Below, in pieces: positions 41,785 through 64,000 of a stretch of 64,000 bases of DNA. The notes beneath the pieces are model-generated. The model did no database searches. It had not been told where the DNA came from and was given only the letters and a program-made list of their open reading frames with translations. This stretch comes from Cellulosimicrobium terreum (GTDB lineage Bacteria > Actinomycetota > Actinomycetes > Actinomycetales > Cellulomonadaceae). The stretch covers positions 1,157,258 to 1,221,257 of the forward strand of contig JACYFD010000001.1 in NCBI GenBank assembly GCA_014803435.1, in the 5' to 3' direction. The position numbers and the translations under genes were made by a program. How positions within the stretch are numbered: the stretch's first letter is position 1; each line of letters begins with the position of its first letter.

Positions 41785-44700
41785 GTGGGTTACCTGTCTG
41801 GCCTGCGCGACCACCGTCGTGCCGTGGCGTCGGTGGGGACGGTGACCGCGTTCTCGGTGGCGCTCGTCGGGTTCGCCTTCTTCTACGAGGGCGAGGCGAC
41901 GGCCGACGTCGACCTGAACGACTCCGGGGTCTGGGTGACGAAGACGTCGTCCGGCCAGCTCGGACGCTTCAACTACGAGTCCCAGGCGATGGACGGCTCG
42001 CTGCTCGCCGGCTCTGCCGCGTTCGACGTGCAGCAGGACGCGTCGCGCGTGCTCCTGGACGACACGGGCTCCTCCGCAGCCTCGCCGATCGACGTCGCGC
42101 ACCTGTCCCTGGACGGGCAGGTCCGGCTCCCCGCGGGTGCGCAGGTCATGTCCGGCGGTGGGGTCACCGCGGTCCTCGACGGGGAGGAAGGCCTCCTGTG
42201 GGTGCTCCCGTTCGACTCCGCGACGTCGTTCGACGCCGAGGAGACGAAGCCGGTCGCACAGCTCGGGGGCGACGGTGCGCTGACCGTGGCGCAGGACGGC
42301 ACGGTGTTCGCGGCGGTGCCGGCGACCGGGACGCTGTGGACCGTGCACACCTCGGTGACGGGCGAGCCCGAGGGCGACGCGCAGACGTCGACGCTGCCGG
42401 TGGAGAAGAGCGCCGAGGTCGCGGTGACCGCGGTCGGCGACGACGCCGTCGTGCTCGACCGCTCGGGAGCTCGTCTCGTCCTGCCCGGGGGGAAGACGGT
42501 CCCGCTCGACGACGCGGGAGCCGCCGAGCTGCAGCAGCCGTCGGCCGCGAGCGAGGCGGTCGTGGTCGCGACGGCGTCGGGCCTGGTCACCCAGCCGTTG
42601 GGCGGTGGTGACGCGCAGGTGCGGCGGGCCTCGGGGGTCCCGAACCCACCGGTCCAGCTCGACGGCTGCACGTACGGCGCGTGGTCGTCGAGCGCGCAGG
42701 TCATCCGTGACTGCGCCGGCTCGGACGACGACGTGGACAAGCAGCTGGAGGGCGTCGACCCGCAGTCCCGCCTCCTCTACCGGGTGAACCGGCACGTCGT
42801 CGTGCTCAACGACCTGTCCGCCGGGACGCTGTGGATGGCCGCGGACTCGTACGAGAAGGTCGACGACTGGGACCGGAAGCAGCCCGAGGAGGCGGCGGGC
42901 GAGGAGTCCGACGCGTCGTTGACGAACCCGGAGCAGGTCGACCAGTTCATCGCCGACCGGTCGCAGCCGAACAAGCCGCCGAAGCCGAAGGACGACGTTC
43001 TCGGGGTGCGCCCGGGGCGGACGACGATCCTGCCGGTGCTGGCCAACGACGTCGACCCGGACGGGGACGTCATGACCGCGACGGTCCTGGGCGAGGGGCC
43101 CGAGGGCGTCGACGTGCAGCAGATCATGGGCGGTGCGGCGCTGCAGGCGGTCGTGCCCGAGGACGCCGAGGGGACCGAGGGGCTCCGGTACGCGGTCTCG
43201 GACGGCCGCGGGGGCGTGGCCGAGGCGGGCGTCTCCCTGAAGGTCTCGCCGTGGGGCGAGAACGAGATCCCCGAGCAGTCCGGCGATCCCGTGCTCAAGG
43301 TCGCCCAGGGCGGCACGGCGAGCATCAAGGTGCTGCCGTACTTCGACGACCCGGACGGCGACGACCTGTACCTCGCGTCCGCCGAGGCGACGTCGGCCGG
43401 CGACCAGGTCCGGTCGCGACCGGACGGGACCGTCGAGTTCCGTGACGGCGGGGCCTCCACGGGCCGCAAGATCGTGGACGTCGCGGTGTCGGACGGCCAA
43501 GGCGGGCTCGCCGAGGGTCAGCTCCTCATCGAGGTGCTGCCGCAGGACCAGCCCCCGATCGCGGTGAACGACCACGTCGTCGTCCCGGCGGGCGAGTCCG
43601 TGACGGTGGAGCCGCTGACGAACGACACGGACCCCGACGGCGACGAGCTGCGCCTGTCGGACGTGTCGGAGGTCGACGGTGCCCAGATCACGGAGAACCT
43701 CGACGCGGGCGAGCTCGCGTTCTCGTCCATGGAGCCCGGCTCGTACGACCTGACCTACCAGGTGACCGACGGCCCGAACGTCACGACCGGGCTCGTGCGG
43801 GTCGACGTGACGGCACCCGACGAGGCGAACGCCCCGCCGATCGTCGTGACCGACACCGCGCTGCTGCCGGCGGGTGGCAAGACCCTCGTCGACGTGCTCG
43901 CGAACGACACCGATCCCGCGGGCGGGGTGCTCGTCGTGCAGTCGGTCTCGGTGCCCGACGACGCCGGGGTGTCCGTCGCGGTCCTGTCGCACCAGATGCT
44001 GCGCGTCACCGAGCTGCGCGCGCTGGACGGCCCCGTGAGCGTCGAGTACACGGTGTCCAACGGGAGCGCGACGTCGACCGGCCAGGTGCGCGTCGTGCCG
44101 GTCCCGGCGCCGACCAGGCTCCAGCCGCCGAACGCGGCGGCCGACGCGGTGACGGTGCAGGCGGGCGACGTCGTGACCATCCCGGTGCTGCGGAACGACA
44201 CGCACCCCGACGGTCTCGAGCTGTTCCTCCAGGACGAGCTCGAGCAGGACGTCGACCCGGCGGTGGGCGAGGCCTTCGTCTCCGAGGACACGCTCCGGTT
44301 CAAGGCGGGATCCGAGGCGGGGACCACGTACGCGATCTACCGCGTCCGGGACGCCAACGGGCAAGAGGACTCCGCGCAGGTCACGATCCACGTGCGCGAC
44401 GACGAGGAGAACGCCGCACCGCAGCCGCGAGCCGTCGAGGCGCGGGTGCTGTCCGGTTCGACGGTGCGCGTCGTCGTGCCGCTCGACGGCATCGACCCGG
44501 ACGGGGACTCCGTCCAGGTCACCGGGGTCGCGTCCGCGCCCGGCAAGGGCACGGCGGAGATCGTCGACGGCTTCCTGGAGTACACGGCCTCGAAGAACGC
44601 GTCCGGGTCGGACTCGTTCACCTACGCCGTGCTGGACACGCGCGGGGCGACGGCGACCGGCACCGTCCGGGTCGGGATCTCCCGTCCGGCCGAGTCGAAC

Positions 44701-47700
44701 CAGTCGCCCGTCGCGGTCGACGACCAGGTCACGGTGCGCCCGGACCGCACGGTCGCCGTGGCCGCGCTGAAGAACGACACGGACCCCGACGGCGACCAGA
44801 TCGCGCTCGTGGGATCGGCGATCGAGGACGCGCAGGGGCTGGACGCCGAGGTCGTCGCGGACCGGGTCGTCGTCACGACGCCCCCGGACGAGGGGTCGTA
44901 CACGTTCTACTACGGCATCCAGGACACCTACGGCGCTCGGGCTGCCGGCGCGATCACGGTCGACGTCGCCTCCGACGCGCCCCTGCAACCACCGGTCGCG
45001 CGCGACGACGCGGTCCAGGTCGAGGACATCCTGGGCAAGACCCAGGTGACCGTGCCCGTGCTCGACAACGACGACGACCCGGACGGCGCCGCGACCGAGC
45101 TGACGGTCGAGGCGGGCACCGCGGCGGCCGGAGGCGCGCAGACCGTGACCGTGGACGACGACGGAGCGCTCGTCGTCACGCTCACGGAGCAGCGGCAGGT
45201 CCTCACCTACACGGTGACCGACCCCGACGGGCTCACGGCGAAGGCGTTCGTCACCGTGCCGGGCCTGACCGCCCAGGTCCCCACGCTGCGGCCCGGGATC
45301 GCCCCGCTCGAGGTGAACGCCGGCGACTCCCTGGACATCGACATCGCCGACTACGTGCTCGTCGTCGAGGGACGCACACCCCGCCTGACCACCGAGGACG
45401 AGGTCACGGCCCTCGAGGGCTCGCGCGAGGTGACCGGCCCGACGACGTTGACCTACACGCCGGATGCGGACTACAGCGGCCCCGCGTCGGTCACGTTCGA
45501 GGTGACGGACGGGACCGGGCCGGAGGACCCCGAGGGCCACGTCGCCCTGCTCACCCTCCCCATCAAGGTCCTGCCACCGAAGAACCTGCCCCCGGAGCTG
45601 GGCAACCCGACGCTGGACGTCGCCGCGGGCGAGGAGGCGTCGGTCGACCTGGCGCGCTTCGCGACCGACCCGGACGAGGACGCGCTCGAGTTCTCGCTGG
45701 ACGGGAGCACCGACGGGATCACGCTCACGCTCGAAGGCGCGACGTTGCACGCGCAGGCGACGCCCGAGGTGCCGAAGGGCACCGTCGTCCGCGTGCCGAT
45801 CTCGGTGACGGACGGTGAGCACCCGCCCGTCCCGGCGGAGGCGACGCTGACCGTGGTGGCCTCCACCCGTCCCCTCGCTCGTGCGAACGAGGACTCGGTC
45901 GACGACGCCCACCAGGGCAAGGAGACGACCGTCCCGGTCCTCGCGAACGACTCCAACCCGTTCCCCGAGACCCCGTTGACGATCGTCGACGCGATCGTCG
46001 AGACCGGGGCGAGCGAGTCCGTCCGCGTCGTGGGCGACTCTGTCGCGGTGACACCCAAGGACGACTTCGTCGGGGTCATGGTGGTGCGCTACCGCGTCCA
46101 GGACGCGACGAAGGACCCGGACCGCGAGGTCGAGGGCCGCATCCAGCTCAAGGTCCTGGGCAAGCCCGACGCGCCGACGACGCCACAGGTCGAGGAGGTC
46201 CGCTCCGAGACCGTCGTGCTGTCCTGGGACCCGCCGAACAACAACGGTGCCGAGATCACCGGGTACACGGTCGCGTCCCAGAACGGGTACACCAAGGAGT
46301 GCGGCACCACGACCTGCACCCTGGACGGGCTGACGAACAACGTGACCTACACGTTCACGGTGTTCGCGACCAACGCCGTCGACGACGGCCCGCCGTCCCC
46401 GGCGTCGGCCGAGGCGCGCCCCGACCAGAAGCCCGACCCGCCGGCCCCGCCGACGCTCGAGTTTGGGGACAAGTCCCTGACCGTCACGTGGGAGAACCAG
46501 ACGTACACCGACCGGTCCCCGATCGAGTGCGTCAACCTCCGCATCTCCCCGCCGCCGGCAGACGCGGCATCGGAGAAGACGTGCGTGAACGGCGTCCAGA
46601 CCGTGTGGGAAGGCCTGGCGAACGGCGAGTCCTACACGGTGCAGGTCCAGGCCACGAACCAGGCACCGGACCCGTCCGAGTGGGGCGACGCGTCCGCGGC
46701 CGAGATCCCGGCCGGGCTGCCCGACGTCCCGGCCGCGCCGAAGTCGGCTCGCAGCGACTCCGAGGTCAACGGCGGCGTCATCGGCGTCACGTGGACCACG
46801 CCGTTCGAGAACGGTGATGCGGTGAAGACCTACCACCTGCAGCGCTACAGGAACGGCAGCGCCGACGGGGCCGCCGTCAGCGTGACCGGGAAGACCTCCT
46901 ACACGGCCACGGGGCTGGACAACGAGTCGACGTACACCTTCGCCGTCGCCGCGGAGAACAAGGCAGGCACGACCGCTGCCAGCGGGGCGTCCAACCAGGT
47001 CGTCCCCTACGGCAAGCCGGGCGAGCCGGGGAAGCCGTCGGCCGCGCTGGTCAACGGCGACACGAGCCGCAAGGCGAGGGTGACGTTCGGCGCGGCCGAC
47101 GCCAACGGCAACGCCGTGACGTACGACGTGCGCGCCAACGGCGGGACGACGAACCAGACCACCGCGACGTCGTACACGTTCACCGGGCTGACGAACGGGA
47201 CCGGGTACACGTTCGACGTCCGCGCGTGCAACGCCGCCGGCTGCTCGGGCTGGACCCCGAAGTCAGGCTCCGTGACGCCCTACACGACCCCGGACGCGCC
47301 GACCGTCGGCTGGGTGCGGAACGGCAACGACGGTCACTTCACGATCAGCAAGAACGGGAACGGCGGCGACGCGATCGACACGGTCGAGTGGGTCATGTCG
47401 GGCGACGCGAGCAAGTCCGGCAACGGGACGTCGAACGTCGGTGTCCCGAGCGCGTGCGGCAAGAGCTACACGCTCAAGGCGCGCGCGAAGAACGCCGCGG
47501 GCTGGGGGGCCTGGGACACCAGGTCGGGGAACACGGACGCGTGCCCGCCGCCGCCCAACCCGGAGCTGCACGTCGTCCACGGGTCCAGCGCGGGCGGTGG
47601 CATGTACTACTTCCGCGTGAAGTACACCGACCTGCCGAGAGGCAACTACGTCTTCGTCTGCGAGGACAAGGACAGCGGGTCGTGGACCAACGTCGGAGGC

Positions 47701-47841
47701 GGCTACCACGAGGCGTTCACGCTCGAGGGCGACGGGACGACGAGCGACCTGGGGTGCTGGTACGGGTGGGCCGGCGAGCTGGTCCGCGTCCGCATGGAGG
47801 GCGCCGGCCAGCAGAGCTGGGTCTCGGAGGTCCCCTGGTGA
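41785..47841 (+). CDS. Giant membrane-anchored surface protein: propeller-like region, ~11 Ig/cadherin-like modules, 5 FnIII modules
   Basis: This 2,018-aa protein has a signal-anchor helix at residues 15-35, so nearly all of it is outside the cell. Residues ~40-400 contain repeated WVL/TLW-type strands like a beta-propeller, with no exact family seen. Residues ~405-1455 hold about eleven ~95-residue modules marked by NDTDPDGD-like Asp-rich loops, as in calcium-binding cadherin-like/VCBS or Ig-like repeats. Residues ~1456-1918 hold five FnIII-type domains (for example SWDPPNNNGAEITGYTV). A distinct Cys-containing ~100-residue C-terminal domain follows. There is no LPXTG or second helix. It is the first gene of the MoxR/kinase/EccC-like locus. 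GTG 41785 follows CCCGGAGGA. Function is unknown; an adhesin or cell-wall-spanning scaffold is inferred. Confidence 0.82.
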   Translation: MGYLSGLRDHRRAVASVGTVTAFSVALVGFAFFYEGEATADVDLNDSGVWVTKTSSGQLGRFNYESQAMDGSLLAGSAAFDVQQDASRVLLDDTGSSAASPIDVAHLSLDGQVRLPAGAQVMSGGGVTAVLDGEEGLLWVLPFDSATSFDAEETKPVAQLGGDGALTVAQDGTVFAAVPATGTLWTVHTSVTGEPEGDAQTSTLPVEKSAEVAVTAVGDDAVVLDRSGARLVLPGGKTVPLDDAGAAELQQPSAASEAVVVATASGLVTQPLGGGDAQVRRASGVPNPPVQLDGCTYGAWSSSAQVIRDCAGSDDDVDKQLEGVDPQSRLLYRVNRHVVVLNDLSAGTLWMAADSYEKVDDWDRKQPEEAAGEESDASLTNPEQVDQFIADRSQPNKPPKPKDDVLGVRPGRTTILPVLANDVDPDGDVMTATVLGEGPEGVDVQQIMGGAALQAVVPEDAEGTEGLRYAVSDGRGGVAEAGVSLKVSPWGENEIPEQSGDPVLKVAQGGTASIKVLPYFDDPDGDDLYLASAEATSAGDQVRSRPDGTVEFRDGGASTGRKIVDVAVSDGQGGLAEGQLLIEVLPQDQPPIAVNDHVVVPAGESVTVEPLTNDTDPDGDELRLSDVSEVDGAQITENLDAGELAFSSMEPGSYDLTYQVTDGPNVTTGLVRVDVTAPDEANAPPIVVTDTALLPAGGKTLVDVLANDTDPAGGVLVVQSVSVPDDAGVSVAVLSHQMLRVTELRALDGPVSVEYTVSNGSATSTGQVRVVPVPAPTRLQPPNAAADAVTVQAGDVVTIPVLRNDTHPDGLELFLQDELEQDVDPAVGEAFVSEDTLRFKAGSEAGTTYAIYRVRDANGQEDSAQVTIHVRDDEENAAPQPRAVEARVLSGSTVRVVVPLDGIDPDGDSVQVTGVASAPGKGTAEIVDGFLEYTASKNASGSDSFTYAVLDTRGATATGTVRVGISRPAESNQSPVAVDDQVTVRPDRTVAVAALKNDTDPDGDQIALVGSAIEDAQGLDAEVVADRVVVTTPPDEGSYTFYYGIQDTYGARAAGAITVDVASDAPLQPPVARDDAVQVEDILGKTQVTVPVLDNDDDPDGAATELTVEAGTAAAGGAQTVTVDDDGALVVTLTEQRQVLTYTVTDPDGLTAKAFVTVPGLTAQVPTLRPGIAPLEVNAGDSLDIDIADYVLVVEGRTPRLTTEDEVTALEGSREVTGPTTLTYTPDADYSGPASVTFEVTDGTGPEDPEGHVALLTLPIKVLPPKNLPPELGNPTLDVAAGEEASVDLARFATDPDEDALEFSLDGSTDGITLTLEGATLHAQATPEVPKGTVVRVPISVTDGEHPPVPAEATLTVVASTRPLARANEDSVDDAHQGKETTVPVLANDSNPFPETPLTIVDAIVETGASESVRVVGDSVAVTPKDDFVGVMVVRYRVQDATKDPDREVEGRIQLKVLGKPDAPTTPQVEEVRSETVVLSWDPPNNNGAEITGYTVASQNGYTKECGTTTCTLDGLTNNVTYTFTVFATNAVDDGPPSPASAEARPDQKPDPPAPPTLEFGDKSLTVTWENQTYTDRSPIECVNLRISPPPADAASEKTCVNGVQTVWEGLANGESYTVQVQATNQAPDPSEWGDASAAEIPAGLPDVPAAPKSARSDSEVNGGVIGVTWTTPFENGDAVKTYHLQRYRNGSADGAAVSVTGKTSYTATGLDNESTYTFAVAAENKAGTTAASGASNQVVPYGKPGEPGKPSAALVNGDTSRKARVTFGAADANGNAVTYDVRANGGTTNQTTATSYTFTGLTNGTGYTFDVRACNAAGCSGWTPKSGSVTPYTTPDAPTVGWVRNGNDGHFTISKNGNGGDAIDTVEWVMSGDASKSGNGTSNVGVPSACGKSYTLKARAKNAAGWGAWDTRSGNTDACPPPPNPELHVVHGSSAGGGMYYFRVKYTDLPRGNYVFVCEDKDSGSWTNVGGGYHEAFTLEGDGTTSDLGCWYGWAGELVRVRMEGAGQQSWVSEVPW

Positions 47842-47917: not shown

Positions 47918-48892
47918 ATGACCACGATGACCCCCGAGCAGGCCGCCTGGTTCGCTCAGACCTTCGACCGGCTCGTCAGCAACGTCGGGCAGGCAGTGCT
48001 CGGCAAGTCGCACATCGTGCGCCTGACGCTGACGTGCATGCTGTCCGAGGGGCACATCCTCCTCGAGGACGCGCCCGGCACGGGCAAGACGATGCTCGCG
48101 CGTGCGATCGCGGCGAGCGTCCAGGGCACCAACAACCGCGTCCAGTTCACGCCCGACCTGCTCCCGTCGGACGTCACCGGCGTGACCATCTACGACCAGA
48201 AGTCGGGGAAGTTCGAGTTCCACGAAGGGCCGATCTTCGCGTCGATCGTCCTGGCCGACGAGATCAACCGTGCCTCGCCCAAGACGCAGTCCGCGCTCCT
48301 CGAGGTCATGGAGGAGGGCCAGGTCACGGTCGACGGCGTCGGCCACTCGGTCGGCCGCCCGTTCATGGTGATCGCGACGCAGAACCCCATCGAGCAGGCC
48401 GGGACCTACCGCCTGCCGGAGGCCCAGCTCGACCGCTTCCTCATGAAGGCGTCCATCGGCTACCCGGACCACGCGTCCACGGTCGAGATCCTCTCGGGCG
48501 CGTCCGTGCGTGACCGCAGCAAGACGCTCCAGCCGCTCATCACCACGCAGGCCGTCACGGAGATGGCCGAGCTCGGGGCGAGCGTGCACGTGGACGGTGC
48601 GGTGCTGGAGTACGTGTCCCGGCTCGCCGAGGAGACCCGCAACGCCGCCGAGGTCCGGGTGGGCGTCTCGGTGCGTGGTGCGCTCGCGCTCGTGCGCTGC
48701 GCCAAGGTCTGGGCCGCCGCGCACGGTCGCAACTACGTGCTGCCGGACGACGTCAAGGAGCTGGCGCCGAACGTCTGGGCGCACCGGTTCGTCCTGGACC
48801 CCGAGGCGGAGTTCGCCGGCGCCACGAGCGAGGCCGTGCTCGGCCGGCTGCTCGCCGACGTCGCGGCACCGCAGGAGCGACGCTCGGCCTGA
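47918..48892 (+). CDS. MoxR-family AAA+ ATPase
   Basis: This 324-aa AAA+ chaperone has Walker A (EDAPGTGKTML, near residue 47), Walker B (IVLADEINRA, near 111), sensor 1 (VIATQNPIEQAG, near 150) and the RLPEAQLDRF signature with the arginine finger region. MoxR proteins with a DUF58 partner help assemble or activate envelope complexes, often with VWA or transglutaminase-fold proteins. The next two genes fit that set exactly. ATG 47918 follows GAGAGAGCAG. The gap from the giant gene is 76 bp. Confidence 0.94.
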   Translation: MTTMTPEQAAWFAQTFDRLVSNVGQAVLGKSHIVRLTLTCMLSEGHILLEDAPGTGKTMLARAIAASVQGTNNRVQFTPDLLPSDVTGVTIYDQKSGKFEFHEGPIFASIVLADEINRASPKTQSALLEVMEEGQVTVDGVGHSVGRPFMVIATQNPIEQAGTYRLPEAQLDRFLMKASIGYPDHASTVEILSGASVRDRSKTLQPLITTQAVTEMAELGASVHVDGAVLEYVSRLAEETRNAAEVRVGVSVRGALALVRCAKVWAAAHGRNYVLPDDVKELAPNVWAHRFVLDPEAEFAGATSEAVLGRLLADVAAPQERRSA

Positions 48893-48939: not shown

Positions 48940-50211
48940 ATGAGAAGCACACCGACGACGACGGGTCGCCCGTCGTCGGGCTCGGCACTTGCCGGGCTCC
49001 TGCGCCCCGTCACCGCGGCGGTCTCGCGCGCGCTCACCCCGGTCGCTCGCGCGGCCGCGCCGGTGACCGGTGCGGTCAGCACGTTCGGGTGGATCGCCCT
49101 GGTCGCGACCGTCGGCGCGTGGTGGGCCGGGCTGCGGTACTCCTGGCTCGAGCTGCTCGTCGGTGCGGTCCTGCTCACCGTCGCGCTGCTGGCCGCCGTG
49201 GTGTTCGTGCTCGGGAAGTTCCGCTACACCGTGGACCTCGACCTCGCGCAGCAGCGCGTCACCGTCGGTGACCGGGCCGTGGGACGTCTGGACGTGCGCA
49301 ACGACTCCGCGCGCCCCCTGCTGCCGTCGGTGATGGAGCTCCCGGTCGGTGCCGGCACGGCGACCTTCCCGGTGCCGCGGCTGCGCCCGGGCGCCAACCA
49401 CGAGGAGATCTTCACGGTCCCGACGCACAAGCGCTCGGTCATCTCGGTCGGTCCCGTGCGCTCGGTCCGCTCCGACCCTCTCGGCCTGCTGCGTCGTGAG
49501 GTCGTGTGGACGGAGCCGGAGGAGCTGTTCGTCCATCCGCGCGTGAAGAACCTGTCCGGCTCCTCGACGGGGTTCCTCAAGGACCTCGAGGGCCGTGTCA
49601 CCACCGACATCTCGAACTCCGACGTGTCGTTCCACGCGTTGCGCGACTACGTGCCGGGCGACGACCGCCGCCACATCCACTGGAAGACGACGGCCCGCAC
49701 GGGCCAGCTCATGGTCCGCCAGTTCGAGGAGACGCGGCGGTCGCACCTCGCGGTCCTGCTGTCGACGCGCGCCGAGGACTACGCGAACGACGACGAGTTC
49801 GAGCTGGCCGTGAGCGTGTGCGGCTCGCTCGGGCTGCAGGCGATCAAGGAGGACCGCGGCGTGACGGTGCTCGTCAACGACGGGAGCCTGCGCGGCGACC
49901 ACCGCACCCGGCTGCTCGACGACCTCTGCCGGGTCGAGTCCTCGTCGAGCCGCACCTCGCTCGTCGACGTCGCGCGCACCGCGGGCGTGACCATCACCGA
50001 CGCGTCCGTCGTCTCGTTCGTCGTCGGCAGCCGGGTGACGCCGACGGAGCTGCGCGCCGCGTCGGCCCGCCTGCCGCAGGACGTCAAGGTCATGGCGATC
50101 CAGTGCGTGCCGGGGGCGTCCCTGAGCCGGCACGCGATCGCCGAGCTCGTGGTCCTCACGATCGGGGAGCTCGCCGAGCTCCCTCTCGCGCTGCGGAGGG
50201 TGAACGACTGA
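48940..50211 (+). CDS. DUF58 domain membrane protein
   Basis: This 423-aa protein has two N-terminal helices (about 45-65 and 70-92), a beta-rich region and the DUF58 core with YVPGDDRRHIHWKTTARTG (near residue 235). The family is the regular partner of MoxR ATPases. Its VWA-like fold may bind a client protein. The function is not known biochemically. Its stop shares a base with the transglutaminase-fold gene (TGATG), so both are co-translated. Confidence 0.9.
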   Translation: MRSTPTTTGRPSSGSALAGLLRPVTAAVSRALTPVARAAAPVTGAVSTFGWIALVATVGAWWAGLRYSWLELLVGAVLLTVALLAAVVFVLGKFRYTVDLDLAQQRVTVGDRAVGRLDVRNDSARPLLPSVMELPVGAGTATFPVPRLRPGANHEEIFTVPTHKRSVISVGPVRSVRSDPLGLLRREVVWTEPEELFVHPRVKNLSGSSTGFLKDLEGRVTTDISNSDVSFHALRDYVPGDDRRHIHWKTTARTGQLMVRQFEETRRSHLAVLLSTRAEDYANDDEFELAVSVCGSLGLQAIKEDRGVTVLVNDGSLRGDHRTRLLDDLCRVESSSSRTSLVDVARTAGVTITDASVVSFVVGSRVTPTELRAASARLPQDVKVMAIQCVPGASLSRHAIAELVVLTIGELAELPLALRRVND

Positions 50212-55068: not shown

Positions 55069-56843
55069 TGCTGCGCTACGAGGCTGGGACCGCGCACACG
55101 CTCGTCCGGGGCGGGGCGGTCGTCGTCCTGCCGGAACCGAGCGGGTCGGCGCTCGTCGAGTCGCTCTGGGACCAGCTCGGTCACGAGCCCGGCGTGGTCG
55201 AGGTCCTGCAGGTCCTCACCGCCGCCTTCGGGTCCGGCCTGCGCACGCTCCCCCCGTTCGCCGTGGCGGTGGTCGTCGACCGCAGGGTGCACGTCGCCGT
55301 GCGCGGAGACCTGGTGGTGGGTCTCGAGCACGAGGGCGACGGGGTGCTGCACGTCGACGGGGTCGACGTGACGACGTGGTCCGAGCGGGTCGTCGACGAC
55401 GTCGTCGAGCTCACGATCCGCACGGGCAGCAGGCAGGGCGCGGTCGCGAGCGCGGGCACGCCCCGGGAGGACCGTCCGTCCTTTCCGCTGGGCGCGGGCG
55501 TGGTGCTCGCGGACTCGGTGTCGTGGGAGCTCGTGGCGCGCCGCGCGCGACCCGTCCAGGCAGCAGCGGCACCGGCAGCCGCGACAGACTTCGCAGCCGC
55601 ACCCGAGAACGCTGCGGTGCCCGACGCCGGGGCGTCCGCGTCTGGTCTGCTCGTGACCGGGGTGCCCGTTCTCGACGCGCTCGCTCCCGCGGTGCCCGCA
55701 GTGCCCGAGGAGGGCGCCGGCGACGACGAGCATCCGCCGCAGTCCGACACGCTCCACGCCTTCGAGGAGACGATCGCTCCACCGCCCGAGCTCGACGGCG
55801 ACCGCTCGACCGACCTCGACGTGCAGCCCGCGGGGGACGACGTCGCGGTGGACGGCGGCTCGGACGCGTCCGACGCGTCCGGCGCGGGCACGGTCGAGGA
55901 AGCCGACGACGACTACGGGCACCTCTGGGGCTCGACGGTCATGCGGACCGTGGAGGACGCCGCGGTGCGGGTCGAGGACGAGGAGGAGCACGAGCCGGCC
56001 GCGGAGCCGGTCGTCCTGCCTCCGCCCGTTCCCGTCCCGCCCGTGCCGGACCCGTCGGCGGCGGGTCCGTCCCCGTGGGAGGCGCCCGGCGTCGAGGACC
56101 CCGCTGACCCCTTCCCGGCGGCGTCCTCCGGGCTGATCGCCGGTGTGCCACGGGAGTGGACCGGGGCGACGCCGGCCGCGGCGCACCGCGCGGCCACGGT
56201 CAACCCCGAGGACGACGCGACTGACGGCACCGACGGCACCGACCACGACGGACACACGGTGCTGTCGTCCGCCATCGCGGACCTGCGGGCAGCGGCCGAG
56301 GAGGCGGAGGGTGAGCCGGCGGAAGCGCCGAGCGCCGAACCCGCCGTTCCCGCACCGCCGTCGTTCGCGTCGCCGCCGGGCCCGGGTCAGCAGATCCTCG
56401 CGCGCACGTGCCCGCAGGGTCACCCGAACCCGCCGTCGCGCGACGACTGCAAGATCTGCGGAGCGCCGCTCGAGGGTGACGCGTCGCTCGCGGTGCGACC
56501 CACGCTCGGCCGGCTCGCGGTCTCGACGGGTCAGTCCGTCGAGCTCGACCGTGGCGTGATCGTCGGCCGTCGGCCGCGGACCCCGCGGACGCAGGCGGCG
56601 GAGATGCCTCGGCTGGTCACGGTGCCGAGCCCGCAGCAGGACATCTCGCGGTCGCACGTGGAGATCTCGCTCGAGGGCTGGCACGTCCTGGTCGCCGACA
56701 TGGCGACCACCAACGGGACGACGCTCATCCGTGCCGGCCAGGCGCCGCGACGGCTGCACCCGTCCGAGCCGGTGCTGGTCACCGACGGAGACCTCGTCGA
56801 CCTGGGCGACGGCGTGACCATGACGTTCGAGGGGATCTGGTGA
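55068..56843 (+). CDS. FHA protein with internal zinc ribbon and novel N-terminal domain
   Basis: This 591-aa cytoplasmic protein has an N-terminal ~150-residue alpha/beta domain that I do not recognise. It is followed by a long acidic Pro/Ala-rich region and a zinc ribbon (CPQGHPNPPSRDDCKICGAPL-like, Cys near 450-470). The C-terminal FHA domain spans about residues 480-590. VGRRPRT, DISRSHVEI and TTNGT keep the phosphothreonine-binding residues. The long acidic linker has several Thr/Ser sites that the adjacent kinase could phosphorylate, which is inference. ATG 55068 or GTG 55065 both overlap the phosphatase stop. Confidence 0.82.
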   Translation: MLRYEAGTAHTLVRGGAVVVLPEPSGSALVESLWDQLGHEPGVVEVLQVLTAAFGSGLRTLPPFAVAVVVDRRVHVAVRGDLVVGLEHEGDGVLHVDGVDVTTWSERVVDDVVELTIRTGSRQGAVASAGTPREDRPSFPLGAGVVLADSVSWELVARRARPVQAAAAPAAATDFAAAPENAAVPDAGASASGLLVTGVPVLDALAPAVPAVPEEGAGDDEHPPQSDTLHAFEETIAPPPELDGDRSTDLDVQPAGDDVAVDGGSDASDASGAGTVEEADDDYGHLWGSTVMRTVEDAAVRVEDEEEHEPAAEPVVLPPPVPVPPVPDPSAAGPSPWEAPGVEDPADPFPAASSGLIAGVPREWTGATPAAAHRAATVNPEDDATDGTDGTDHDGHTVLSSAIADLRAAAEEAEGEPAEAPSAEPAVPAPPSFASPPGPGQQILARTCPQGHPNPPSRDDCKICGAPLEGDASLAVRPTLGRLAVSTGQSVELDRGVIVGRRPRTPRTQAAEMPRLVTVPSPQQDISRSHVEISLEGWHVLVADMATTNGTTLIRAGQAPRRLHPSEPVLVTDGDLVDLGDGVTMTFEGIW

Positions 56844-58585
56844 GCGGCAAGCGGGCACCGTCTCCACCACCTCAGATCGAGGGCTTCGAGTACGTCTCGC
56901 TGATCGGCTCCGGCGGGTTCTCCGATGTCTTCCTGTACAAGCAGCAGCGACCACGACGACGGGTCGCGGTGAAGGTGCTTCTCCAGGAGTGGTCGAGCCC
57001 GTCCCAGCGGGCGGCGTTCGATGCCGAGGCGGACCTGATGGCCACGCTGTCGACGCACCCGTCGATCGTCACGATGTACGAGGCCGACATCGCGGCGGAC
57101 GGGCGTCCGTTCCTCGCGATGGAGTACTGCTCGCGTCCCAACCTGGGCGCCCGTTACCGCACCGAGCGGCTCTCGGTCGCGGAGGCGCTGCGCATCGCGG
57201 TGCAGGTGGGCGGAGCGGTCGAGACCGCGCACCGCGCCGGGATCCTGCACCGCGACATCAAGCCCGCGAACATCCTCGTCACGGAGTACGGGCACCCCGC
57301 GCTCACCGACTTCGGCATCTCCTCGACCGTCGACGACGCGACGCGTGCGGAGGGCATGTCCATCCCGTGGTCGCCGCCCGAGTCGTTCGCCGAGCCGCCG
57401 CGCAGCGGCATCGGCACCGACCTGTGGGGGCTCGCCGCGACGACGTACACCCTGCTCGCCGGTCGCTCGCCCTTCGAGGTGCCCGGCGGCTCGAACTCGA
57501 GCGCCAACCTCATCACACGCATCGAGGGCACGCCGCTCGCACCGACCGGCCGCACGGACGTCCCGGCGTCGCTCGAGCGGGTCCTCGCGACCGCGATGGC
57601 GAAGAACCCGTCGTCGCGCTACCCGACCGTCCTCACGTTCGCGCGAGCTCTCCAGCAGGTCCAGAACGAGCTGTCGCTCGCGGTCACTCCCATCGACCTT
57701 CTCGACGACTCGGGGCACGTGCAGGAGGAGGAGCCCGACGACGACGGCGGGACGCGCCTGCGCCAGGTCGTCTCGATCGACCCTGCAGGTCCCTCGGGCG
57801 GGACGTCCGGTCCCGTGCCCGCCGCGACGTACAGCACCGCGGCGTGGACGGGGACGGCGACCGCGGCGACCGGCGCGCCCACGCAGTACGGCGTCGGGTC
57901 GCCGAACCAGTACGGGGCGACCGCCCCGCAGGCCACGGCGGTCCCGAGCCGCACGGCCCCGACCTCCGCCGTCAGGCCGACGCAGGGTCGGAGCGGGCCG
58001 GCGACGGACACGACCGGGCCGTCGAGGCTCTACCCGACTCCGCCGGGACAGCGCCCCGGGTGGGGCACACCACCGGTCGAGGACACGGTCCACCGTCCGG
58101 ACGCGCCGTCCTCCGGGCAGTCGCAGGCCGTCGAGCAGCCCGCGCGTCGCGGAGCGCTCTGGCCCGTCCTGATCGGCGTCGGTGTCCTCGCCGCGGCCGG
58201 GATCGGTGTGTACGCGCTGACGAGCGGCGGCGGGTCGCCGACCGATCCGGACGAGACGGCGACGACGACCTCGACGACCCCGCCGCAGGACAACCTCGGC
58301 GACCTCGTGCCACCCGTGAACGACCTGGTGGGGGAGTGGGACCCGGATCGCGAGGTCGCGACCTTCACCTGGGCGTACGACAGCGCGGACGCCGAGGAGG
58401 GCGACATGTTCGTCTGGTGCGAGCGGACCGCGGTGGGGGAGTGCGACTACAAGCAGGCGTTCGACGAGACCGAGGTCGAGCTGAGCGCCAAGCCGGACGA
58501 GCAGGTGTGCATCGAGGTCAGGGTGGTCCGGGACGGTCGGCAGTCGACCACGCCGGCGACGGCCTGTGTCGAGGGGGCAGCATGA
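56840..58585 (+). CDS. Receptor-type Ser/Thr protein kinase (PknB-like) with FnIII-like ectodomain
   Basis: This 581-aa Hanks-type kinase has the glycine-rich loop IGSGGFSDV, catalytic Lys45 (VAVKVL), the HRDIKPAN loop with Asp139, and DFG Asp157. The activation segment is short (STVDDATRAEGMSIP) with a PPE in place of APE. A Ser/Thr/Gln-rich linker leads to one transmembrane helix (~440-465). The ~120-residue outside domain starts NDLVGEWDPDRE and carries Cys pairs; it resembles an FnIII fold, not PASTA repeats. That suggests it senses a protein rather than muropeptides. GTG 56840 overlaps the FHA gene, and the stop overlaps the next. Confidence 0.92.
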   Translation: MSGKRAPSPPPQIEGFEYVSLIGSGGFSDVFLYKQQRPRRRVAVKVLLQEWSSPSQRAAFDAEADLMATLSTHPSIVTMYEADIAADGRPFLAMEYCSRPNLGARYRTERLSVAEALRIAVQVGGAVETAHRAGILHRDIKPANILVTEYGHPALTDFGISSTVDDATRAEGMSIPWSPPESFAEPPRSGIGTDLWGLAATTYTLLAGRSPFEVPGGSNSSANLITRIEGTPLAPTGRTDVPASLERVLATAMAKNPSSRYPTVLTFARALQQVQNELSLAVTPIDLLDDSGHVQEEEPDDDGGTRLRQVVSIDPAGPSGGTSGPVPAATYSTAAWTGTATAATGAPTQYGVGSPNQYGATAPQATAVPSRTAPTSAVRPTQGRSGPATDTTGPSRLYPTPPGQRPGWGTPPVEDTVHRPDAPSSGQSQAVEQPARRGALWPVLIGVGVLAAAGIGVYALTSGGGSPTDPDETATTTSTTPPQDNLGDLVPPVNDLVGEWDPDREVATFTWAYDSADAEEGDMFVWCERTAVGECDYKQAFDETEVELSAKPDEQVCIEVRVVRDGRQSTTPATACVEGAA

Positions 58586-59286
58586 CGAGCGAGCTGGCGG
58601 TCGAGTTCTGCGGGGAGTGGTTCCGGCCGGCCGACGACGGCACGGGTTTCGACATCGGCCGCGAGGGCGACCTGGCGATCGAGGACAACCCGTACCTGCA
58701 CCGACGGTTCCTGCGGGTCTCTTACGAGGGCGGGATCTGGTGGCTCGCGAACGTCGGCACCCTCATCTCCGCGACGGTGTGCGACTCCGGGGGCGGCGTC
58801 CAGTCGTGGCTCTCGCCGGGCAACCGCCTGCCGATCGTCTTCCCGACGACGTCGATCGTCTTCACCGCGGGCCCGACGACGTACGAGCTCACCGCCCAGC
58901 TCCTCGGGGCGCCGTACCAGGAGATCCGCTCCGAGGAGGACCCGGACTCCGGCGCCACCACGATCGGCATGATCTCGTTCACGACGAGCCAGAAGCAGCT
59001 CATCGTGGCGCTCGCCGAGCCGATGCTGCGGCGCGACGGGACAGGCCTGTCGGAGATCCCGTCGTCCGCCGCGGCGGCCGCGCGGCTCGGCTGGGCCGTG
59101 ACGCGGTTCAACCGCAAGCTCGACAACGTGTGCGACAAGCTCGACCGGATCGGGGTGAAAGGACTGCGCGGCGGACCGCGCGCCCTCGCGACGAACCGTC
59201 GGGCCCGACTCGTGGAGTACGCCGTCGCGTCGCGGGTCGTGACGTCGACCGACCTGCCGCTGCTCGACCTGACCGACGACTCCTGA
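58582..59286 (+). CDS. Degenerate-FHA plus winged-helix-like protein
   Basis: This 234-aa protein starts with an FHA-like beta domain (~1-115): FDIGREGD is FHA-like, but the usual S-x-x-H reads LHRRF, so phosphothreonine binding is doubtful. The C-terminal part (~130-205) looks like a winged helix: KQLIVALAEPML, a short AARLGWAVTRFNRKLDNV recognition helix, and a GVKGLRGG wing. FHA-HTH proteins of this type occur by type VII-like loci, but their role is unknown. It could be a DNA-binding regulator of the locus or an adaptor for EccC. ATG 58582 overlaps the kinase stop; the EccC gene starts 38 bp later. Confidence 0.75.
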   Translation: MTSELAVEFCGEWFRPADDGTGFDIGREGDLAIEDNPYLHRRFLRVSYEGGIWWLANVGTLISATVCDSGGGVQSWLSPGNRLPIVFPTTSIVFTAGPTTYELTAQLLGAPYQEIRSEEDPDSGATTIGMISFTTSQKQLIVALAEPMLRRDGTGLSEIPSSAAAAARLGWAVTRFNRKLDNVCDKLDRIGVKGLRGGPRALATNRRARLVEYAVASRVVTSTDLPLLDLTDDS

Positions 59287-59324: not shown

Positions 59325-62300
59325 GTGCGCATCAAGCTCTCCCTGCACCGCCCGGACTCGAGCACGACCAACGTCGCCGTCACAGCGGACGCGACCGCGT
59401 CGGTGCAGGACGTCGCGGAGGCGCTGTTCGCCGGTGACCCGATGCGGGCGGGCGCCGACCTGCCCGAGCGGCTGACGCTCCAGATCACGAACGCGCCCAC
59501 CGGCGCGGGCGCCGTCGGGCAGGGCCGCGTCCTGGCCCCGACGAGCGATCTCGTCGAGGCGGGCCTGCGGTCGGGCTCGACGGTCTCGATCGTGCGGGTG
59601 TCCGAGCAGTTCGACGCGCCGGGCAAGGACCGCGGCGCCGCCATGGCGGTGCTGCGCGTCCTCGAGGGACCCGACGCCGGGACCGAGTACCCGCTCCCCG
59701 TGGGGACCAGCTACGTGGGCCGGGACCGGGACATGGACATCCGGCTGTCCGACCCGCAGGTGTCGAAGCGGCACGCGCGCATCACCGTGGGCGAGTCGAT
59801 CGAGATCACGGACACGAACTCCGCGAACGGTCTGGTCATGGGCGGCCGGCGCATGACCCGGTCGAGCCTGACGTCGGCGGACACGGTGACGATCGGCGGC
59901 ACCGTCGTCTCGGTGGTGGCGCTGCACCGCTCGTCGAGCCTCGCCCCCACGAGCCCGGTCGTGGAGTTCAACCGGTCGCCGCGCGTGGTCGCGCGGTTCG
60001 GCGAGCGCAAGCTCAAGGCGCCCAAGCCGCCGCAGCCGCCGGACTCCCCGCGCTTCCCGTACCTGGCGATGCTCGCGCCCCTCATCATGGGCACGATCCT
60101 CTACGCAGTCACCAAGAACGTCCTGTCGATCGTGTTCATCGGCCTGAGCCCGCTCCTCATGCTCGGCGCGTACATCGACAACAAGGTCCAGGCGAAGCGC
60201 AAGTTCAAGCTCCAGGTCGAGCAGTTCCGCCAGTCCGTCGCCGCGATGCGCGTGACGATCGAGCGCACGCACGCGGTGGAGCGCGCGGTCCGCCTCACGG
60301 AGGCGCCGTCGGTCGCGGACACGGTCGACGGGGTGCGCCGGCTGGGTGGCCTGCTGTGGACGCACCGCCCGGAGCACCAGGCGTTCCTCACCCTGCGCGT
60401 CGGGATCGGGCGCGCGCCGTCGCGCACCCAGCTCGACCAGCTCGGCGAGAACAACACCCTGCCGGAGTTCTGGGGCGAGCTGGAGAAGCTGGCCGCGGAG
60501 TGCGCGACGATCGACGGCGTGCCCGTCGTCGCACGCCTGCGCACCGACGGCGGGCTCGGGATCGCCGGTCCGGGTGCCGTCGCGGACGCGGTCGGGCGCG
60601 GGATGCTCGTCCAGCTCGCCGGCCTGCACTCGCCGGCCGAGCTCGTCCTCGCCGCGATCACGTCGCCGCGGTCCCGCGAGGACTGGGAGTGGCTCGAGTG
60701 GATGCCGCACACCGGCTCCCCGCACAGCCCGCTCGACGGCGACCACCTGGCCGACAACCCCGGGGCGGCGCTGTCGCTGCTGTCCCGGCTCGAGGACCTC
60801 ATCGAGTCGCGCGGGGCGGACCTCGACCGGCGCGCCGAGCTGCGCGGTGCGCTCGACCCGAAGGAGGTCGCCGAGAACACGCCGTCGCCGGTGCTCCCGA
60901 CCGTCGTCGTGCTGATCGAGGACGACGCGCCGGTCGACCGCTCGCGGCTCACGCGCCTGGTCGAGCGCGGACCGGACGCGGGCGTCCACGTCGTGTGGGT
61001 CGCGCCGACGGTGGAGCAGCTCCCGGCCGCGTGCCGGACGTTCGTCCTGGTCGGCGACGACCTGACCGGCGGCCCGACGACGGGTGCGCCCGGTGCCGCC
61101 ACGGGGGCCACCTCGGGCGAGGTGCGCCTGGGTCAGCTGACCTTCCCGGTGACGTGCGAGACCGTCGACCTGGCCACCACGCACGAGCTCGCGCGCATCC
61201 TCGCGCCCGTGGTGGACGTCGGGGCGCCGGTCGACGACGACTCCGACCTGCCGCGCTCCGTGTCGTACCTCGCCCTCGCCGGGACCTCGCTCGCGGAGGA
61301 CCCGTCGGTGCTCGTCGACCGGTGGCGGGAGAACCGGTCGCTCACCCCGCGTGACGGGTCGCCGCCCGTGCGGCGCAGGACGCCGACCAACCTGCGCGCG
61401 CTCGTCGGCCACTCCGGCACCGAGCCCCTCTACCTGGACCTGCGCACGCAGGGGCCGCACGCGCTCGTCGGCGGGACGACGGGTGCGGGCAAGTCCGAGT
61501 TCCTCCAGTCGTGGGTGCTCGGCATGGCGGGGGCGCACAGCCCGGACCGCGTGACGTTCCTGTTCGTCGACTACAAGGGTGGCGCGGCGTTCGCGGACTG
61601 CGTGCACCTGCCGCACACCGTCGGCCTCGTCACGGACCTCTCGCCGCACCTCGTGCGGCGCGCGCTCACGTCGCTGCGCGCCGAGCTGCGGTACCGCGAG
61701 CACCTGCTCAACCGGAAGAAGGCGAAGGACCTCGCGTCCCTCGAGCGCACGGGCGACCCGGACGCCCCGCCGAGCCTGCTCATCGTCGTCGACGAGTTCG
61801 CGGCGCTGGTCAACGAGGTCCCCGAGTTCGTGGACGGCGTGGTCGACGTCGCGCAGCGCGGTCGGTCCCTGGGGCTGCACCTCATCCTCGCGACCCAGCG
61901 CCCCGCCGGTGTCATCAAGGACAACCTCCGCGCGAACACGAACCTGCGCGTCGCGCTGCGCATGGCGGACGCGGACGACTCGACCGACATCCTCGGCATC
62001 CCCATGGCGGCGCACTTCGACCCGTCGATCCCCGGGCGTGGCGCGGTGAAGACCGGGCCCGGCCGGATCACGCCCTTCCAGACCGGTTACGCGGGCGGGT
62101 GGACGACGGCCGAGCCCGAGCGCCCGCGCATCGACGTCCAGGAGATGTCGTTCGGTGCGGCGACGCGCTGGGAGCTGCCCGAGCCGGAGGTCGACGACAC
62201 GCTCGACCCGGGCCCGAACGACATCAGCCGCATGGTCGCGACGATCGCCCGGGCCGCGCAGGACGCGGCCGTGCCCGCGCCGCGCAAGCCCTGGCTGCCC

Positions 62301-63827
62301 GAGCTGGCGCACACGTACGACCTCGCGCGCCTGCCCAACCCGCGCACGGACACCATGCTCCTGCTGGGAGTCCAGGACGAGCCGTCCTCGCAGACGCAGC
62401 CCACGGTGTTCTACGAGCCCGACCGGGACGGGAACATGGCGGTCTACGGCACGGGCGGCGCCGGCAAGAGCGCCGCGCTGCGCACCATCGCGATCTCGGC
62501 GGCGATCACGGCCCGCGGCGGTCCCGTCCAGGTCTACGCGATCGACGCCGGTGCGAGCGGGCTGCGCATGCTCGAGGAGCTGCCGCACGTCGGCGCGGTC
62601 GTCTCGAACGACGACGAGGAGCGGATCTCGCGCGTCCTGCGGATGCTGCGCGACGTCGTCGACGAGCGGTCGACCCGTTACGCGGGGGTCCGCGCGGGAG
62701 ACATCACCGAGTACCGCCGGCTCGCGAACGCCCCCGAGGAGCCGCGCATCCTGCTCCTCGTCGACGGCATCGGCGCGTTCCGCGAGTCCTACGAGTTCAA
62801 GAACACGCCGGGCTTCCCCGTGTGGGGGGCGTTCTCGCAGATCGCCACCGACGGCCGGCAGGTCGGCGTGCACGTGATCGTCGCGGGCTCGCGCGCCTCG
62901 TCGGTGCCCGCGTCGCTGGGGTCGACGATCCAGAAGCGCCTGGTGCTGCGCCTCGCGAGCGAGGAGGACTACCTCTCGCTCGGCGTCCCTCGCGACGTCC
63001 TGTCACTGACGTCGCCCCCGGGCCGCGCGATCCTCGACGGTGACGAGGTGCAGGTCGCGGTGCTGGGTGGCGACGCGAACGTCGCGATCCAGTCGCGCGA
63101 GGTGAACAAGCTGCGCGACGCCATGGCCCGCCTCGGCATCCGCCCGGCGCCGCCCGTCGAGCGGCTGCCGGACACGTTCCGCCTCGCCGACCTGCCGGTA
63201 CGGGCCGGGGACCGGCCCGCGTTCGGCCTCGACGACCTCGACATCGCGCCCGTCGGGCTCCCCTCACGGGGGACGCTCATGCTGTCCGGTCCGCCCGGCG
63301 GCGGTCGCACGACGGCGCTCGTCACCATCGCGCAGGCCGTGCGGCGCGGTGGCGGCAGCCGGGTCGTCTTCCTCGCGCCGCGCCGCACGAGCATCGCGTC
63401 GCTCGACGTGTGGGACACGAGCGCGACGACGCCGGAGGACGTGGTGTCGCTGCTCGAGAACCTGACGCGGGCGATCGACTCCGGTGCGCTGCGCCCGGGT
63501 TCGCTGACCGTGCTGGCCGAGTCGATCACCGAGTTCACGGGCACCCCCGCGGAGCAGCCGCTCGCGACCTTCGTCAAGACGGCGGTCCGTGCGGAACAGC
63601 TCGTCGTCGGTGAGGCGGAGACGTCGACCTGGGGCCAGGCGTGGGCGCTGGCGCAGCCCTTCAAGGCGGGACGGACGGGACTGCTGCTCACGCCCGGCGA
63701 CATCGACGGCGACTCGCTCCTGAGCACCTCGCTCGGGCGGATCCGGCGCGCGGACTTCCCGCCCGGACGTGGCTTCCTGGTCCTGTCGGGACGGCCGCGC
63801 AAGATGCACGTCGCCCTGCCCGACTAG
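59325..63827 (+). CDS. EccC/EssC-like FtsK/SpoIIIE ATPase with N-terminal FHA domain (type VII-like secretion motor)
   Basis: This 1,500-aa protein begins with a ubiquitin-like region (1-95) and an FHA domain (~105-200). The FHA residues (VGRDRD, SKRHARI, SANG) are intact. Two helices (~243-286) are followed by three FtsK/SpoIIIE ATPase domains. Domain 1 has Walker A GGTTGAGKS with Lys723 and Walker B IVVDE with Asp823. Domain 2 has GTGGAGKS with Lys1048. Domain 3 has GPPGGGRT with Arg1328 in place of Lys. This is the EccC/EssC layout that drives WXG100 export, and a probable WXG100 gene begins 145 bp later. GTG 59325 follows AGAGGA. EccB, EccD, EccE and MycP are not in the visible part. Confidence 0.93.
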   Translation: MRIKLSLHRPDSSTTNVAVTADATASVQDVAEALFAGDPMRAGADLPERLTLQITNAPTGAGAVGQGRVLAPTSDLVEAGLRSGSTVSIVRVSEQFDAPGKDRGAAMAVLRVLEGPDAGTEYPLPVGTSYVGRDRDMDIRLSDPQVSKRHARITVGESIEITDTNSANGLVMGGRRMTRSSLTSADTVTIGGTVVSVVALHRSSSLAPTSPVVEFNRSPRVVARFGERKLKAPKPPQPPDSPRFPYLAMLAPLIMGTILYAVTKNVLSIVFIGLSPLLMLGAYIDNKVQAKRKFKLQVEQFRQSVAAMRVTIERTHAVERAVRLTEAPSVADTVDGVRRLGGLLWTHRPEHQAFLTLRVGIGRAPSRTQLDQLGENNTLPEFWGELEKLAAECATIDGVPVVARLRTDGGLGIAGPGAVADAVGRGMLVQLAGLHSPAELVLAAITSPRSREDWEWLEWMPHTGSPHSPLDGDHLADNPGAALSLLSRLEDLIESRGADLDRRAELRGALDPKEVAENTPSPVLPTVVVLIEDDAPVDRSRLTRLVERGPDAGVHVVWVAPTVEQLPAACRTFVLVGDDLTGGPTTGAPGAATGATSGEVRLGQLTFPVTCETVDLATTHELARILAPVVDVGAPVDDDSDLPRSVSYLALAGTSLAEDPSVLVDRWRENRSLTPRDGSPPVRRRTPTNLRALVGHSGTEPLYLDLRTQGPHALVGGTTGAGKSEFLQSWVLGMAGAHSPDRVTFLFVDYKGGAAFADCVHLPHTVGLVTDLSPHLVRRALTSLRAELRYREHLLNRKKAKDLASLERTGDPDAPPSLLIVVDEFAALVNEVPEFVDGVVDVAQRGRSLGLHLILATQRPAGVIKDNLRANTNLRVALRMADADDSTDILGIPMAAHFDPSIPGRGAVKTGPGRITPFQTGYAGGWTTAEPERPRIDVQEMSFGAATRWELPEPEVDDTLDPGPNDISRMVATIARAAQDAAVPAPRKPWLPELAHTYDLARLPNPRTDTMLLLGVQDEPSSQTQPTVFYEPDRDGNMAVYGTGGAGKSAALRTIAISAAITARGGPVQVYAIDAGASGLRMLEELPHVGAVVSNDDEERISRVLRMLRDVVDERSTRYAGVRAGDITEYRRLANAPEEPRILLLVDGIGAFRESYEFKNTPGFPVWGAFSQIATDGRQVGVHVIVAGSRASSVPASLGSTIQKRLVLRLASEEDYLSLGVPRDVLSLTSPPGRAILDGDEVQVAVLGGDANVAIQSREVNKLRDAMARLGIRPAPPVERLPDTFRLADLPVRAGDRPAFGLDDLDIAPVGLPSRGTLMLSGPPGGGRTTALVTIAQAVRRGGGSRVVFLAPRRTSIASLDVWDTSATTPEDVVSLLENLTRAIDSGALRPGSLTVLAESITEFTGTPAEQPLATFVKTAVRAEQLVVGEAETSTWGQAWALAQPFKAGRTGLLLTPGDIDGDSLLSTSLGRIRRADFPPGRGFLVLSGRPRKMHVALPD

Positions 63828-63841
63828 GTCGCCCGGAGGCC

Positions 63842-63856: not shown

Positions 63857-63862
63857 AGGCTC

Positions 63863-63880
63863 ATGGGGAGGCCTCCCCAT
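63863..63880. promoter_or_regulatory. Perfect 18-bp palindrome ATGGGGAGGCCTCCCCAT
   Basis: This perfect palindrome lies 93 bp before the WXG100-like start and shares its TGGGGA/TCCCCA arms with the site upstream of the giant surface gene. It is a candidate operator for the whole locus. It could also form an RNA stem, but has no T-run. Confidence 0.6.
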
Positions 63881-63972
63881 CGACGCCTCGGGGCGGGCGA
63901 TGGTTGAGTACGTCCATCAGGACACGGACGGGGTCGCACGGTGCGGCTCCCGGCGAGAGAAGGGGAACCACC

Positions 63973-64000
63973 ATGGCTGGACTTTGGGGCGCAAACGTCG
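63973..64000 (+). CDS. 5' end of a probable WXG100-family secreted protein (cut by window edge)
   Basis: Only MAGLWGANV is visible, starting at ATG 63973 after GAGAAGGGGAA. WXG100 proteins downstream of EccC-like ATPases often begin with a very similar short stretch (MAGLWGAD-like). This plus position makes a type VII substrate likely, but the WXG motif itself lies beyond the window. Confidence 0.5.

Follow-up and report, generated by a model that had tools for sequence, protein, structure and literature searches.

The window analysed here is a 64,000-nucleotide stretch of Cellulosimicrobium terreum DNA (G000:C1:1157258-1221257; assembly GCA_014803435.1, contig JACYFD010000001.1) whose last base is also the last base of contig C1. 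Its right-hand end (41785-64000) holds eleven consecutive genes on one strand, the last of them a cut gene that starts at 63973, and the coordinates and content given for them by an earlier reading of the bare sequence (the original prediction) are borne out. Most junctions were said to be stop-start overlaps; six of the ten are (-1 or -4 bp), and the remaining four are gaps of 76, 47, 38, and 145 bp. Sequence-level comparisons fit best with a distinct type VII secretion system (T7SS) of actinobacteria. The features of the locus are as follows:

41785-47841, + strand: giant protein, 2018 aa, with a hydrophobic segment at aa 14-32, Ig/cadherin-like repeats and fn3 (Pfam)
47918-48892, + strand: MoxR AAA+ ATPase, 324 aa (Pfam AAA_3, 1.2e-62)
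48940-50211, + strand: DUF58 protein, 423 aa (Pfam)
50211-52700, + strand: membrane protein with TgpA_N and Transglut_core, 829 aa (Pfam); GDDEQF at 51795-51812
52697-54232, + strand: RDD membrane protein with an FHA domain, 511 aa (Pfam); a zinc-ribbon match is under the cut-off
54229-55068, + strand: PP2C phosphatase, 279 aa (Pfam), with DGMGG, SDG and DN motifs
55068-56843, + strand: protein with a C-terminal FHA domain, 591 aa (Pfam)
56840-58585, + strand: Ser/Thr kinase, 581 aa, with a hydrophobic segment at aa 443-461 and HRD, DFG and VAVK motifs
58582-59286, + strand: 234-aa protein, first half degenerate FHA-like by alignment, no Pfam match
59325-63827, + strand: EssC-like type VII motor, 1500 aa (FHA and FtsK_SpoIIIE by Pfam; NCBIfam)
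59325-59609, + strand: motor front, about aa 1-95, predicted to fold as a ubiquitin-like (YukD/EccD-type) domain
59712-59897, + strand: motor FHA domain with canonical phosphothreonine-site residues (Pfam, alignment)
63973-64000, + strand: start of a WXG100-type gene, cut at the contig end (continued on contig C9)

The 1500-aa protein had been taken for the EccC-like motor of a type VII-like locus, and the NCBIfam profiles agree, with 525 bits for the EssC model, 348 for EccCa and 55.6 for FtsK, the EssC and EccC scores lying below their curated cut-offs. The locus has the EccC/EssC-type FtsK ATPase expected of type VII secretion in the broad sense. Walker A motifs are intact at aa 717 and aa 1042, and the third P-loop reads GGGRT at aa 1322. 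The FtsK_SpoIIIE domain would also suit a DNA translocase or cell-division ATPase, as would names given in the sources ('cell division protein FtsK' and the like), but the EssC and EccC scores greatly exceed that for FtsK, a WXG100-type gene adjoins the motor, and contig C12 of the genome has its own, weaker match with the size of FtsK, such that we consider this explanation hardly credible. Plain FtsK was accordingly rejected on the profile scores, and an ordinary ESX EccC was rejected because the EssC score is the higher and the genome has no EccB, YukD or EccE match.

A quick maximum-likelihood tree of 40 motor rows (SH-aLRT support; Olsenella uli TsdC not among the rows) places the window motor with 16 motors of related genomes in one clade (support 100), three ESX-type motors in a second (100), and the bifidobacterial, Actinomyces, Streptomyces, and Actinoplanes motors in a third, of 19 rows (98). 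By this comparison the window clade is separate from ESX EccC as well as from the clade to which the bifidobacterial motors of the T7SSd type belong. A second, very divergent FtsK/EssC-type motor is encoded in the same genome (contig C8, about 281-285 kb; L072 from 16562 into L073), beside genes resembling an FtsX-like transporter and a WhiB-like gene; its branch is very long and its place in the tree unsure.

The first 100 residues of the motor are predicted to be ubiquitin-like, by a structure model and by fold matches, and are followed by the FHA domain. Pfam gives no match to this front end, the YukD profile included, and the matches in a sequence-only PDB search (E 0.038) and with a profile of the bifidobacterial motors (best E 0.01) are both weak. 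The same front end is predicted for the bifidobacterial T7SSd-type motors. For T7SSd, the absence of a ubiquitin-like protein is a stated puzzle (available text of PMC11217815), and a shared ubiquitin-like front would explain the 'missing' protein and so offers a possible answer. Regular expressions applied to 80 motor fronts gave a noisy ubiquitin signature in 47 and an FHA signature in 11, and a profile-versus-shuffle count is preferred over these. Many of the loci found with the bifidobacterial motors (best 80 of 432 named, L152-L231) are from Streptomyces, Actinoplanes, and Catenulispora.

The cut gene at 63973 had been called WXG100-like, and its continuation on contig C9 agrees. The last 127 bp of C1 are exactly the first 127 bp of C9, and C9 encodes two identical 89-aa WXG100-type proteins (L082 100-369 and 554-823), each with WQG, inside a 454-bp tandem repeat (L082 1-876) with identity over 422 bases from the first base of the contig. 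The repeat probably broke the assembly, and the two copies are perhaps a recent duplication. The 89-aa protein scores 21.1 bits with Pfam WXG100 (E 3.7e-4; curated cut-off 27.3) and 23.3 bits with NCBIfam WXG100 (E 5.4e-5; curated cut-off 44.85), and because these scores fall below the cut-offs its assignment rests on the E-values together with motif, length, and position. The same WXG100-type gene directly follows the motor in all 14 same-genus loci read downstream, so that a WXG100-type protein is encoded with the motor, as type VII secretion in the broad sense requires. An LpqN-like protein is encoded beyond the two copies, and the gene after that presumably specifies a ferredoxin-NADP reductase.

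Three FHA domains, one on the motor, had been proposed to be intact readers, and GR, SxxH, and NG are kept in all three. These residues occur in 30 of 30 motor FHA rows, picked for diversity from 119 listed matches beside the window's own, and in the aligned adaptor FHAs (GR, S..H, NG) of the RDD-FHA protein (19 rows) and the 591-aa protein (21 rows). The kinase alignment has DFG in 22/22 rows and HRD in 21/22 (HHD in G044), and the PP2C alignment has DGMGG and [ST]DG in 21/21, with the DN motif changed in one row (L068). The proposed receptor kinase stands as a kinase by Pfam; its FnIII-like sensor is not supported, as no fn3 match was returned by Pfam for the ectodomain. The kinase of T7SSd, TsdD, has a C-terminal part described as mostly helical. 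Similarly, the 234-aa protein, described as FHA-like with a winged helix, aligns in its first half as a partly degenerate FHA, and Pfam, with no match anywhere in the protein, lends the winged helix no support. Among the 149 genomes of the order (own included), 52 have a member of its family. A motor ortholog of at least 900 bits is carried by 41 of the 149, and 35 of these 41 have the family too, 22 times within 2.5 kb; the odds ratio for co-occurrence with the motor, not corrected for phylogeny, is 31.

The envelope genes were also correctly described, in that Pfam agrees on the 2,018-aa Ig/FnIII protein, MoxR, and DUF58, as it does on PP2C. Pfam assigns the repeats of the giant protein to Big_9, cadherin, and fn3, and a hydropathy scan finds its sole hydrophobic segment at the N-terminus and none at the C-terminus. 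The transglutaminase fold, predicted to be inactive, has D, S, E or A in 22 of 22 aligned rows (own included) at the position which, from the family pattern, we take to be that of the catalytic Cys. These rows include those of the bifidobacterial PFNA operon, in which the 'transglutaminase' has been described as an enzyme. The PFNA operon, described in bifidobacteria as standing alone, consists of pkb2, fn3, aaa-atp, duf58 and tgm, with prpC, a gene of no stated function, and fha in some species, and MoxR is a reported phosphorylation target of Pkb2 in B. longum (PMC8430577, in the parts available).

The window shares with that operon a kinase, an fn3 giant, MoxR, DUF58, a transglutaminase, PP2C, and FHA, including all five of the core genes together, and its giant is 31.4% and 31.6% identical to the PFNA-type giants of G106 (B. 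mellis) and G044, respectively. The published order (pkb2-fn3-aaa-duf58-tgm-prpC-hyp-fha) is not retained, since the window has fn3-MoxR-DUF58-transglutaminase but the kinase after the phosphatase; all eight genes are in order in G044 (same family as B. mellis), the first five in B. mellis and G032, and in G027 kinase, giant, MoxR, and DUF58 are called. Gene content and alignment indicate that this half of the locus is homologous to the PFNA operon. What the window adds is the type VII motor and WXG100, which are no part of PFNA as published; the available text of the PFNA review (PMC8430577) has no occurrence of 'FtsK' or 'WXG100'.

The association of the two halves was followed among relatives. 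With labels assigned by resemblance and alignment, 8 of the 10 listed upstream loci show the gene order of the operon; G031 and G032 are rearranged. DUF58 (E<=1e-40) is present in 34 of the 41 motor genomes, and in 23 it shares the motor's strand at a distance of no more than 12 kb; DUF58 paralogs blur such counts. The four envelope genes of G114 have all shrunk or diverged (giant 373 aa as called, the others 28-34% identical). In two genomes the block lies near motors of other kinds. In G023, about 2 kb and two transporter-like genes separate the block (transglutaminase to PP2C) from an ESX locus, in which Pfam identifies EccB, an EccD that includes YukD, two subtilases, a pair of WXG100 proteins and an FtsK-type motor. 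G062 has the full block and the 234-aa protein, then a sister-clade motor about 3.8 kb further on with five called genes between (two on the opposite strand), followed by an FHA protein and, at the WXG100 position, a 97-aa candidate. Both occurrences suggest that the block may be a portable type VII envelope and signalling module. The flanks of the G023 locus are those of the window locus, with one pair of genes per side that we take, from resemblance, to be NADH dehydrogenase/polyprenyl synthase and FNR/YajQ.

Several observations weigh against a tight coupling of motor and block, and on the wider scale the break-up of the operon in relatives that the original prediction had warned of does in part occur, motor and envelope block being often apart across the order. 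DUF58 is farther off or on another contig in 11 of the 34 motor genomes, and in 29 of the 149 genomes DUF58 is present but the motor is unmatched (1e-110). G036 and G021 have the block with no motor in roughly 40 kb read, and in B. mellis and B. choladohabitans DUF58 is about 31 kb from the motor and on the opposite strand. No signalling gene is called beside the motor in G140 and G156, only PP2C in G091, and only the RDD-FHA protein in G107 and G143. Separately, Pfam finds neither FHA nor YukD in any of 12 bifidobacterial and Actinomyces motors at E<=0.01, and reading of phosphothreonine by the motor is therefore not general.

Such a distribution could arise if two independent systems share one operon, a PFNA-type adhesin or sensor and a small type VII exporter, with the kinase serving the giant and not the motor. 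The 29 motor-less DUF58 genomes, the unaccompanied motors of G140 and G156, sister-clade motors that occur without the block, and the stand-alone PFNA operon of bifidobacteria (PMC8430577, as far as available; also G044, G106, and G027) all fit this explanation. Nonetheless, we think it unlikely. PP2C, FHA protein, kinase and 234-aa genes adjoin the motor in G063 and G164, and all but the kinase do so in G086, in genomes with no DUF58 at E<=1e-40; the phosphothreonine-site residues are retained in the motor FHA; and type VII motors of two further kinds have the block in their vicinity.

Comparison with the named systems places the locus among T7SSs, with differences from each. The original prediction that EccB, EccD, and EccE are not seen extends to the whole genome, in that profiles for EccB, YukD, and EccE have no match there or in any of 16 same-genus genomes; EccD was covered only via its YukD domain profile (PF08817), and MycP was not searched for. 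For EccE, 95 of 99 own-genome candidates were scored, and in many genomes part of the candidates went unscored. Among 39 genomes searched (own included), EccB is matched in 4, YukD in 5, and EccE in 3, one of the three being G018, which bears a window-type motor. A weak EccE match (25 bits) in G025 (C1:1022108-1023001) lies inside a DUF58 match and is probably chance, or else a distant resemblance. The locus thus shares with ESX (T7SSa) WXG100, the FtsK/EccC family, and a ubiquitin-like domain (in EccD for ESX), but differs in that EccB, YukD, and EccE are unmatched. With the Ess/Yuk systems (T7SSb) it has in common an EssC-type motor with FHA, a membrane (pseudo)kinase, and a ubiquitin-like component. 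T7SSb differs in having EssB as a pseudokinase, EssC FHAs with no phosphothreonine site, and YukD/EsaB as a free protein (PMC11217815, available text); PF08817 has no match to a free YukD/EsaB in the present genome.

Two T7SSs linked to kinase and FHA, T7SSd and T7SSe, are known from a 2024 description that suggests phosphothreonine control (Garrett, Higginson and Palmer, PMC11217815, in the text available). T7SSe shares with the window a kinase, a PPM phosphatase, a separate FHA protein, a giant, a ubiquitin-like part, and WXG100, but belongs to Bacillota and has a free TseB. T7SSd is closer, and the locus might simply be a member as published, being actinobacterial with WXG100, an FHA-bearing EssC-type ATPase with conserved phosphothreonine residues, a kinase, and a giant Ig-like protein; both also lack a free ubiquitin-like gene, and the ubiquitin-like domain is predicted in the window motor and the bifidobacterial T7SSd-type motors alike. 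However, the window motor is outside the clade of the bifidobacterial motors (in a tree without O. uli TsdC), the sole hydrophobic segment of its giant is N-terminal, TsdI being described with a Sec signal and a C-terminal transmembrane segment (PMC11217815, available text), no TsdH-like gene with a single transmembrane segment is among the eleven window genes, and PP2C, two FHA adaptors, MoxR, DUF58, and the transglutaminase are extra. We regard plain membership as quite improbable. In G022, G019, and G024 (L065, L066, L067) a gene of 68-84 aa with an apparent hydrophobic stretch lies between the 234-aa gene and the motor, and it may correspond to TsdH or TseK.

The original prediction could name no described system with this combination, but T7SSd and T7SSe (PMC11217815) and PFNA (PMC8430577), in the parts available, are published precedents, the former joining kinases and FHA with type VII motors and the latter joining the envelope genes; the locus is a new T7SS variant relative to these. 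MoxR, DUF58, transglutaminase, and fibronectin have no occurrence in the main text of PMC11217815, and the literature searched contained no paper connecting the motor and PFNA halves and nothing on type VII secretion in Micrococcales with WXG100; for Cellulosimicrobium with type VII secretion it listed a single metagenome paper. Among papers that share at least three of the subjects type VII secretion, MoxR, DUF58 and transglutaminase, the term type VII secretion appeared only in PMC8191103, once, and the available portions of PMC1949818 and PMC3482391 have nothing on a ubiquitin-like fusion to the motor. The additions made here are the link between type VII secretion and PFNA, the predicted fusion of a ubiquitin-like domain to the motor, and the occurrence of one block beside motors of different kinds; the ubiquitin-like front, the block near other motors, and WXG100-headed proteins elsewhere in the genome were seen only with tools.

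We favour, as probable though well short of certain, a type VII-like system with a motor clade of its own and a PFNA-type block beside it, which likely exports WXG100-type proteins under kinase and phosphatase control. For the motor type and clade, the FHA, kinase, and PP2C residues, the Cys-less transglutaminase, the WXG100 gene, the lack of EccB, YukD, and EccE matches, and the recurrence of the block this draws on sequence, and for the ubiquitin fold on model prediction. We infer that kinase and FHA may gate export through phosphothreonine. The membrane kinase would phosphorylate threonines of a partner, to which the motor FHA and the two FHA adaptors would dock, replacing the EssB pseudokinase-FHA contact of T7SSb, and PP2C would reset the phosphorylation state. 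The fused ubiquitin-like domain would fill the role that falls in other systems to the EccD domain or to YukD/EsaB as a free protein. The N-anchored Ig/fn3 giant may be assembled or held by MoxR, DUF58, and the inactive transglutaminase, and could span the wall as a scaffold or exit path. The cargo would be WXG100-type proteins and WXG100-headed proteins with a tail like NAxxQExTS.

A broader proposal, which we offer tentatively and think somewhat doubtful, is that PFNA is a portable type VII envelope and phospho-signalling unit that has paired with three or more motor types (ESX EccC, the window clade, and the clade holding T7SSd-type motors), with the near-universal ubiquitin-like component fused to the motor in the last two; the 'host-communication' operon of bifidobacteria would then be a remnant or partner of a secretion system, and the T7SSd ubiquitin would be found. 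PFNA, which in bifidobacteria has been studied for its cytokine binding, would be tied to protein secretion, and one block beside motors of three kinds would provide a natural series for kinase-FHA control of type VII export.

Candidate substrates were sought with a 50-aa WXG100 probe, which also matches six other, larger proteins encoded in the genome; they range from 342 to 605 aa, and five match at E<=0.0011 and one at 0.085. All six have a W-x-G head, a tail near NADxQExTS, and a Gly/Pro-rich linker in the stretch printed, and on these features they are candidates for export. Searched as a strict DNA pattern, NAxxQExT[S-like] occurs six times in 4.5 Mb, in both WXG100 copies and in four of these large proteins, and not at all in a reversed control; as a sequence result this indicates a shared family signature and not secretion. 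A looser tail motif occurs in 45 of the 149 genomes, mostly as background, the informative subset being the 10 genomes that have it within 2 kb of the motor, together with the own genome via contig C9. In one WXG100-headed protein (L085 4627-5712) a cysteine protease domain of the calpain type is recognised (E 3.2e-19), and its gene is followed by a 97-aa gene with no family match. Proteins of 214 aa (L087 3186-3830) and 265 aa (L048 6057-6854), neither with a Pfam match, are encoded directly after other WXG100-headed genes and are possibly chaperone or immunity proteins. The sole Pfam WXG100 match reported for the genome is an orphan 97-aa protein (L003 8907-9200; contig C8:553915) that is encoded far from every type VII motor.

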